Source of the DNA: Watersipora subatra
Taxonomy: Eukaryota > Bryozoa > Gymnolaemata > Cheilostomatida > Watersiporidae
Assembly: GCF_963576615.1 (NCBI RefSeq)
Contig: NC_088717.1
Location: 38,518,302-38,582,301, forward strand
Direction: 5' to 3'
Length of the DNA stretch: 64,000 bases
Shown one piece after another: positions 53-3,000 of this stretch. The notes under the pieces were generated by a model. That model was not told the origin of the DNA. It was given only the letters and a program-made list of their open reading frames with translations, and did no database searches. Each line of letters opens with the position of its first letter. Positions within the stretch are counted from its first letter, which is position 1. The position numbers and the translations under genes are program-made.

Positions 53-3000
53 CATTAGAGGCAGACAGGTCAGCAGGAAAGTTGTAGGCAGACCGTCTAA
101 GTATGACAATCTTCTCTTGGCAAAGAGTGGCATGGCGACTGGCAATGCCTTTCCGTTGTTGCGGCGTGAGTGGATACAGCATGCTGTGATGGGGATGAAC
201 AGACGGAAGTCGATTTTTCTTAAGTTGTTCAGAGACTATGCTCACTAGCCTTTGCATTCTTTCATCATAATCTGTCCAGTCACAGACGATCTACAGGACA
301 TATTTTTTTAACATTGTTGCAAACGAAATTGAACTAGGAGCTAGTTAGAAACGTGGATAAGCTTATTTCTAATAACTGAATGTTTGTGTGTAAACAATAC
401 GTGAAGACCATGCTTGCAGCAATGTAGAGCAAAATTCACTAGACATTGGACTGGCCACACAGATGATATGACGTTCAATTTCGGCCACACACAAGATGAT
501 CAGACATTTGATAATTCAAAATTTTATTCTAGCAAGCTTTAATATTCGGCTTCTCGAAGAATATTTTTAGGTGCTATCAAGTAGATAGCAGTATTAGCTG
601 CTTTCCAGAAAAATAAATAATCCTGAGCAAAATCTCGGTTCAACAAACCTGCAAACAGTGAGCAAGATTGCAGTAAGCATCTGGAAAATCTGGCTTCAAT
701 TTGAGAGCCATTCTGTAACTTTGCACAGCCTCCGGAATATTTCCGCTATCCTTGTGAATGCTGGCAAGGTTGCTATGAGCATCAGCAAAAGCAGGATTGA
801 TTTGTATGGCGCGAGTGTAGCACTGCATAGCTCCTTGAACATCCTGCATCTCTTTAAGAGTGTTTCCCATGTTTGAATATGCATCAGCAAATGTTGGCGA
901 TATTCTGCTCAATGTAAAGAACAGATGCAACAGCCATTGCTTAACTACAGACAACAAATACCATTTTGAATCAGCAGTAACAGGAGACAAATGAACAACA
1001 AGATTAAACAATCATATCACAGATCCATGGGCTACAGCATATCACAACATATTAACAGGGTCAGGCTAACAAGGTGAGTGGGATAATGCAAGGGAGGAAT
1101 TATAAGCAAGACAAGAGTGAAAAGCAAGACAAGAGTGAGAAGCAAGACAAAATGTGTTACTTCTTTGGAAGACAAATTCTTTTGTAAGTTTACCTGATTG
1201 CATCTTGGTAATGTGCGAGGGCCTCATGCAGCTTCCCTTGCATTTGCAAAATACTAGCTAAGTTAGAGTGAGCAGCAGCAAATTCAGGAAATACCTAAAA
1301 CCCAACACTAGCAGCATAAGATAACCGAGACGACACTGCATGGATTGCAAGCACATCTACCAGGAATGAGACCTTGTCACAGTAACATGCACCAGAGCCT
1401 TACAAATGAAAGCCCATGCAGTTAGTTTTTTGTTAAGAACCCTGCGGCATGCACGATCCAATGGCCAACCACTACCCAGGTGTACGAATAAGCAGACAGC
1501 AGCAGCGGGGAGAGCACTGCAGCAAATAAGATATCCAACAAACCTAATTGCTTCCTTATAATGCTTAAGGGCATCATGAAGATTGCCTTGTTGTTGTAAA
1601 ACACTGGCAAGATTAGAATGGGCAACAGCAAACTCTGGGTAGACCTGAAACACGTGGAGGATTGTCTTTTGTCTATTTGTCTGACAGCTAGAAACTGCTG
1701 ACACGGTAAAATCTAGTCGGTAATAGTTTTTGGTCATCCTCCAACAAGCCAAACAAAACTATCAACAGACTGCACCTCTTGCCATCAATCTGATTACTGG
1801 CCAGAGTAGTGTGCAACAAATACTACACACCTCTAAAGCTTTCATATACAACCGGACAGCCTCCTCAGTGTTACCTTGCTCCCGCTTGATGTTGGCCAAA
1901 TTGTTTAGAGAGTCAGCATGTGCAGGACAAAGTTTGAGGGCGGTGTTATACATGTCTTCTGCTTCTTGTACCTGAAAGGTTTGTAGATGAGAACTACCAC
2001 ATGGACTAACACATACCAGGCTACATGTATATGTTGAGCTACCCCCAGCTCAACCATATGGTGACAAAACTAACTGCCCAGTAATTCCAGACCACAAACT
2101 AGTTCTGGCTATTGCTCAATCAAGCCGACAAGATGTCTTATCAACTTTCCAACTTGACGATTCATACTTTTGATACACTGAGAGGTGGTAAAAACTGTAG
2201 TAAATATACATTAACATGTCGAGAATCCTTTTCGAATATATTCACTCTGCTACCAAACCTTCTTAACATGCTTTAATAGTGCACAAACAACTAAGTCACT
2301 ATTTTATCAAGGCTTTATTAGTCGACATACTTCTAGGTTACGTGGTTAACTTGAACATTTATTCGTCAAGACTTTTTTCTATAAGCACATCATTTCGATC
2401 AGCAATGTTGCACAAAGTGTGACTGACCCGGGCAGCAAAAGGGTTAACCTGGTTAATATATCAATAATCAATTGACATCACATCTATTCACCCAATCTGT
2501 TATAATGTATTAAAAAAGAACACCTACAAATATTGTAATACCGTTGTAGTAACACAACAGTCCTTTGCAATGCTTGCTATAGAGAAATAAATCGTATATT
2601 AAAGCAGTAACCGAGATGCTTAAATTTATACTGTATACTGATGAAAACTTGCAAAATGTGGAGACTACCAACAGCAAAGACAGTGGTCAGCACTGCAATA
2701 TTTTTGGTAGTCGCTTGATATCGCTCTAGCAGACGTTTGACACCGACCACGACACGAGTGAAGCGAGTCGGTTCTAATTCTCTGCACGAAATCAATTAGG
2801 TTAATACCCAAGTATATTATACCTACCTTCCCTTTCTCTTTGAGAGCATTGGCAAGGTTGCAGTATGCATCCGGAAAGTTGGGTTGCAACTCAATGGCTC
2901 GTTTATATGTATCGACAGCAAGATCAACTAAGCCTTGTTCATAGTAAACACATGCCAAGTTTCCATGAACCTAACAAAACAAAATAATAAATGCGTTATG

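Follow-up and report, generated by a model that had tools for sequence, protein, structure and literature searches.

Among mutually exclusive exons, the pair 5A and 5B of the C. elegans gene egl-15 is reportedly regulated by Fox-1, with UGCAUG near the alternative exons. Clusters of such exons were defined by Pillmann et al. 2011 (PMC3228551), and those of human were surveyed by Hatje et al. 2017 (PMC5740500). In its available sections, the former (PMC3228551) recognises clusters by similar or equal exon length, conserved splice sites and frame, and sequence homology, and gives 90 of 16180 non-mutually-exclusive exons of the fly X chromosome as satisfying the same criteria. The latter (PMC5740500), in the part available, requires reads that bridge each exon over the other, joining reads being absent unless frame-shifting; of the human clusters, 377 (60%) contain exons not divisible by three. 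The two exons described here, E9a and E9b, share with these clusters their adjacency, homology, equal length and phases, absence of stops and a frameshift upon joint inclusion. Those clusters are backed by reads, and the present candidate pair is described from genomic sequence. E9a and E9b resemble the egl-15 pair, as reported, in being a mutually exclusive candidate pair with UGCAUG nearby, but the gene is a different one and a Fox-type factor is here only predicted from the motif.

The gene concerned is that of O-GlcNAc transferase (OGT), the enzyme that places the sugar GlcNAc on thousands of proteins. The human isoforms ncOGT, mOGT and sOGT contain 13.5, 9 and 2.5 TPRs, respectively (PMC12645433, in the part available). 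As in the human case, isoforms of one gene would alter the TPR domain; unlike there, the number of TPRs would be constant and the sequence of one repeat period swapped. Human OGT also has a detained intron 4 with a decoy exon (PMC12017769, available sections), in which splicing is likewise tied to a premature stop and nonsense-mediated decay, although a different intron is involved.

No mutually exclusive exon pair in OGT was found in the literature covered, from which subscription journals are mostly absent and in which several sources were available in part; the first-pass annotation of this DNA likewise knew of no such switch described for OGT. OGT and GlcNAc have 0 occurrences each in the human survey's main text (PMC5740500). 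The accessible parts of two eLife papers use 'mutually exclusive' once each, in listing splicing event types, and that of a Drosophila paper describes intron retention in sxc.

The OGT gene

The window, as the whole analysed stretch is called here, comprises 64,000 nt of Watersipora subatra (NC_088717.1, 38,518,302-38,582,301; assembly GCF_963576615.1). On its minus strand, from 5847 to 53, it contains what its translation marks as a real, intron-rich animal OGT gene, with eleven coding exons and one extra exon copy (Table 1). All eleven introns are GT-AG. The gene is truncated by window base 1, and most of the catalytic part lies outside the window. With the human OGT reference sequence (PDB entry 7ntf), isoform b shares 453 of 530 residues (85%), and the TPR region minus exon 9 shares 373 of 418. 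The asparagine ladder is kept at residues 94, 128, 196, 230, 264, 298, 332, 366, 400, 434 and 468 (human numbering; 11 of the 12 listed positions were checked, 165 being left out as off the 34-residue step). The aspartate ladder is kept at all eight positions, 124, 162, 226, 294, 328, 396, 430 and 464. Both lists of human positions are taken from the available part of PMC12569812.

Exon E4 corresponds to residues 155-177 in O15294-1 numbering. Skipping of human exon 4 is described as a loss of 69 bp, p.del155-177 (PMC5535036, in the part available), and, because E4 is exactly the segment removed, the introns around it are sited as in the human gene. The intron following E4 (3433-5098, minus strand), with 1666 nt the longest of the eleven, is the counterpart of human detained intron 4. 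Further downstream, the acceptor of E10 is a tandem GAGCAG (905-910, minus strand); splicing at the first of its two AGs would add a single Ser ahead of Arg, keeping the frame with either E9a or E9b.

Table 1. Exons, intervening intron and UGCAUG hexamers of the OGT gene (window positions).
Feature	Position	Strand	Remarks
E1, start codon presumed	5690..5847	-	comparison with human OGT
E2	5508..5596	-	
E3	5251..5405	-	
E4, 69 nt	5099..5167	-	matches human exon 4 segment
E5	3316..3432	-	
E6	3057..3188	-	
E7	2827..2970	-	
E8, exon upstream of the pair	1831..1971	-	
E9a, 101-nt alternative exon, the upstream copy (phase 0 to 2)	1544..1644	-	GT-AG, no stop, 27/33 identical to human OGT
249-nt GT-AG intron between the two, with three sense UGCAUG and ten YGCY	1295..1543	-	
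UGCAUG hexamer 1	1448..1453	-	
UGCAUG hexamer 2	1415..1420	-	
UGCAUG hexamer 3	1386..1391	-	
E9b, 101-nt alternative exon, the downstream copy (phase 0 to 2)	1194..1294	-	GT-AG, no stop, 27/33 identical to human OGT
UGCAUG hexamer 4, within E9b	1225..1230	-	
E10, exon downstream of the pair	649..904	-	tandem GAGCAG acceptor
E11; gene extends past window base 1	53..290	-	

The rest of the window was scanned for open frames, the resulting annotation being a partial one. A 1414-codon open frame of the Ty3/gypsy type with RT, RNase H and integrase domains (8074-12315) lies on the plus strand, opposite to OGT and some 2.2 kb upstream of its presumed start codon. Further elements on the plus strand are Helitron-like pieces (30418-32867), a second RT/RNase H frame (48966-50714) and a LINE-like endonuclease with RT (52121-54972). 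A probable MFS transporter exon is located at 44971-45204 on the minus strand (MFS_1, E 3.6e-5, below the curated cut-off). There are also two tandem arrays, one of the 7-bp unit GATCACT (42363-42618, 36.6 copies with 100% matches) and one of a 32-bp unit (26633-27370, 23.1 copies).

Anatomy of the exon pair

The splice flanks are ttcag/G...TAG/gtttgt for E9a and tttag/G...CAG/gtaaac for E9b, the slashes marking the exon borders. The exons have the same length (101 and 101 nt), conserved splice sites and frame with no in-frame stop, and are homologous in sequence (71/101 nt and 24/33 residues identical, or 25/34 residues counting the split-codon Arg), which are the features by which clusters are recognised in PMC3228551. 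With either exon alone, the frame is open through E11. When E9a and E9b are joined, 12 codons past the join are followed by TAG, and when both are skipped, six codons (N-I-A-N-I-C) are read before a stop. As three does not divide 101, the full-length frame demands exactly one copy.

The first-pass annotation had proposed two adjacent 101-nt exons with phases 0 in and 2 out, intact splice sites, no stops, 25 of 34 identical residues and a frame kept by either exon and lost with both or neither; on each of these points the sequence agrees with it. It had also described the two exons as encoding the same 34-residue TPR. Each does encode one 34-residue period, but this period is shifted by five residues with respect to the Pfam TPR_1 repeat, the last five residues of which are supplied by the next exon.

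The resemblance between the copies is well above that among the repeats in general: E9a matches the other 12 34-residue units of the protein at 8-15 of 33 residues only, versus 24 of 33 for E9b, and the range for those units against E9a or E9b is 8-16 of 33. When both isoforms were compared with the whole window by tblastn (E up to 1), there was no match outside the first 6 kb, and no third exon copy was found in the window.

Constraint and age of the duplication

By the Nei-Gojobori method, E9a and E9b have 17.7 synonymous differences in 21.0 sites (pS 0.84, saturated) and 12.3 nonsynonymous differences in 78.0 sites (dN 0.18). Of 30 nucleotide differences among the 99 complete-codon bases, 21 are at third positions. 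In a neutral simulation with 30 random differences, 18.4 residue changes were expected, while 9 are observed; nine or fewer were obtained in 0 of 20000 runs, and 38% of the runs were stop-free. Two-branch simulations, matched on third-position differences, were performed with a constrained copy accepting 1 in 10 residue changes (a chosen value). With one copy drifting, the mean was 26.1 residue differences and the minimum 16, with nine or fewer in 0 of 576 kept runs. With both copies constrained, the mean was 10.0, and nine or fewer were seen in 42% of 365 kept runs. Judged by these substitution patterns, both exons have demonstrably evolved under constraint at the protein level for the greater part of their history as duplicates.

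The first-pass annotation had placed each copy about six residues from human OGT and had argued that neither is decaying; the distance is exactly 6 of 33 for both E9a and E9b, and drift of one copy is rejected by the simulation, which fits constraint on both. With distances of 9, 6 and 6, simple additivity gives about 4.5 changes on each exon branch and 1.5 on the human side. On these few sites, the duplication seems to be an old one, dating from near the base of this lineage. The flanking introns, which essentially cannot be aligned, likewise mark it as old: of five local alignments, four are at the level of shuffled sequences (P 0.15-0.59). The fifth, which took the 60 nt flanking either exon on both sides, gave a match of about 20 nt (score 23, P 0.013); random pairs of 60-nt segments drawn from the window attained this score in 13 of 3000 cases, and the repeat is only a lead. 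It consists of an imperfect direct repeat of about 20 nt, one copy just after the E9a donor and the other just before the E9b acceptor (intron 1543-1295, minus strand). A search of bacterial and archaeal contigs for relatives yielded one distant bacterial locus, with 22% identity over the TPR part, and viral contigs yielded none.

These observations bear on three other explanations of the locus. One copy might be the only working exon, and the other a duplicate that is unused or in decay. E9b has the weaker donor of the two (1.4 bits, versus 8.5 for E9a and with 0.7 for that of E3, using a tiny within-gene matrix). Such a duplicate would be expected to drift, yet runs with one drifting copy average 26 residue differences and never fall to the observed nine, and both copies have GT-AG sites, no stops and the same distance to the human protein. 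We consider this explanation improbable. Slightly less probable still is that the second exon serves chiefly as a poison exon, with double inclusion or exon choice tuning the amount of OGT mRNA via decay and the protein difference being secondary. The stop 12 codons past the join of the two exons is compatible with this, as is the dependence of human intron 4 detention on a decoy exon (PMC12017769, available sections). A pure poison exon, however, needs no protein constraint, yet residue changes are far below the neutral expectation, and replacement of E9a by E9b leaves the frame open through E11.

That the pair is an artefact of assembly, or represents two alleles assembled in tandem, is hardly credible. 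A single contig is the source of the sequence, which leaves room for such an error, but synonymous sites between the copies are saturated and four of five flanking-intron alignments are at shuffle level, a divergence not expected of alleles. We regard it as highly probable that E9a and E9b arose when one exon of this animal OGT gene was duplicated in tandem long ago, and that both have been kept as a mutually exclusive pair. The anatomy of the pair is certain. From frame and constraint, their mutually exclusive use is very likely.

Residues exchanged and the TPR surface

The repeat holding exon 9 goes by different names in publications; in UniProt naming it is TPR10. It becomes TPR11 if the 4.5-repeat construct is TPR10-13.5, as in the available part of PMC8586251, where a register shift of 10 in OGT numbering is also described. 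Residue numbers given here are those of human O15294-1, equal to the window isoform number plus 20 and fixed by the asparagine rung 366; the crystal numbering is 10 below O15294-1. Pfam TPR_1 scores are 38.3 bits for E9a, 34.8 for E9b and 38.1 for the human repeat, with a cut-off of 27.8.

The nine differences, given as E9a/E9b/human, are 357 Y/F/F, 362 V/A/A, 370 V/I/V, 373 Q/M/Q, 376 N/K/K, 379 D/E/E, 382 K/A/M, 385 K/Q/K and 386 E/D/E. In the Pfam TPR_1 alignment, residues 362 and 373 are at TPR positions 2 and 13, which account for two of the nine differences and which belong to the concave, lumen-facing side. At 362, where human OGT and E9b have Ala and E9a has Val, the neighbouring repeats carry Asp (328 and 396). 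Five of the nine are at positions 16, 19, 22, 25 and 26, in the second helix of the repeat. The asparagine rung, N366, is the same in E9a and E9b. The surface change between the two is real but modest, the lumen being changed little and the outer face more. An earlier suggestion that the isoforms have different TPR surfaces holds as far as these nine differences go, in this modest form and with the asparagine rung unchanged. That the isoforms switch substrates is a conjecture, plausible but unproven.

Exon choice and sequence motifs

Steric exclusion was considered and rejected: at 249 nt, the intervening intron exceeds in length six of the ten others in view, which have 83-186 nt. Incompatibility of U2 and U12 introns was likewise discarded: all eleven are GT...AG introns, and none has a donor like the U12 consensus. 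For structures of the docking-site/selector type, with competing RNA pairings, three pairs of flanking introns were examined in this single sequence, which offers no covariation; none exceeded its 60 mononucleotide shuffles (P 0.12, 0.32 and 0.48). No sign of a distant branch point for E9b was seen, its AG exclusion zone being only 11 nt. Because steric hindrance and U2/U12 incompatibility fail to explain the exclusion, and pairing above shuffle level was not seen in the single sequence, we infer that exon choice would be made by trans-acting splicing factors. Wrong products, with both exons or neither, would be removed by nonsense-mediated decay.

UGCAUG, an RBFOX-type motif found enriched near exons regulated by RBFOX, occurs three times in the intervening intron and 0 times in the ten other OGT introns in view. 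In the sense direction, four copies are present in 5900-1, all within 1453-1225 (three intronic and one in E9b). Among hexamers occurring at least twice in the intervening intron UGCAUG ranks first (Poisson P 9e-5, uncorrected), with TGCTGC and GCTGCT enriched nearly equally (P 9.9e-5 and 1.1e-4); the motif counts cover seven motifs in eleven introns, chosen after seeing the sequence. Markov nulls trained on the intron itself give P 0.0074 (first-order) and 0.078 (second-order). Across the whole window there is no enrichment (44 found, 49.4 expected), and a second cluster of three is present at 15063-15112.

Under the known position rule for Fox proteins, UGCAUG downstream of an exon raises inclusion of that exon, while upstream it silences the exon. 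By this rule the sites would favour E9a and lower E9b, with statistics that are only suggestive. As a conjecture, a Fox-1/RBFOX-type protein may bind the cluster after E9a and before E9b, raising the former and silencing the latter, and E9b would be used where the factor is lacking. RBFOX regulation of the pair is a guess.

YGCY, an MBNL-like or Muscleblind-type motif, has ten copies in the intervening intron, six of them within the first 60 nt after the E9a donor (1543-1484, minus strand), a cluster made up partly of low-complexity GCT repeats. Outside the gene, 55 of 11552 segments of 249 nt hold ten or more copies, and 6 of 11588 segments of 60 nt hold six or more. Because the first-order Markov P is 0.196, no claim is made for this cluster.

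Implications

Tandem duplication of exon 9 would have provided two copies, both retained, and from this single gene two OGT enzymes that differ in their protein-binding surfaces are probably made. The two proteins would share the asparagine rung but have nine residue differences within one TPR period, a change that may tune the binding of substrates or partners. A fuller proposal, which we put forward tentatively and think rather unlikely as a whole, is that an old RBFOX-controlled switch yields two tissue-specific OGTs, differing at one turn of the superhelix including residue 362 and having cell-type-specific O-GlcNAc targets.

A 2025 review still asks why OGT is a single enzyme and how it can serve so many situations (PMC12569812). 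If the proposal is true, splicing is how this lineage meets the problem of having 'only one OGT'. The pair would add exon exchange to the known RNA-processing variation of OGT, which includes isoforms differing in TPR number and intron detention. Two isoforms that naturally differ in one TPR period only would also be a ready-made experiment on the role of the TPR lumen and outer surface in target choice.
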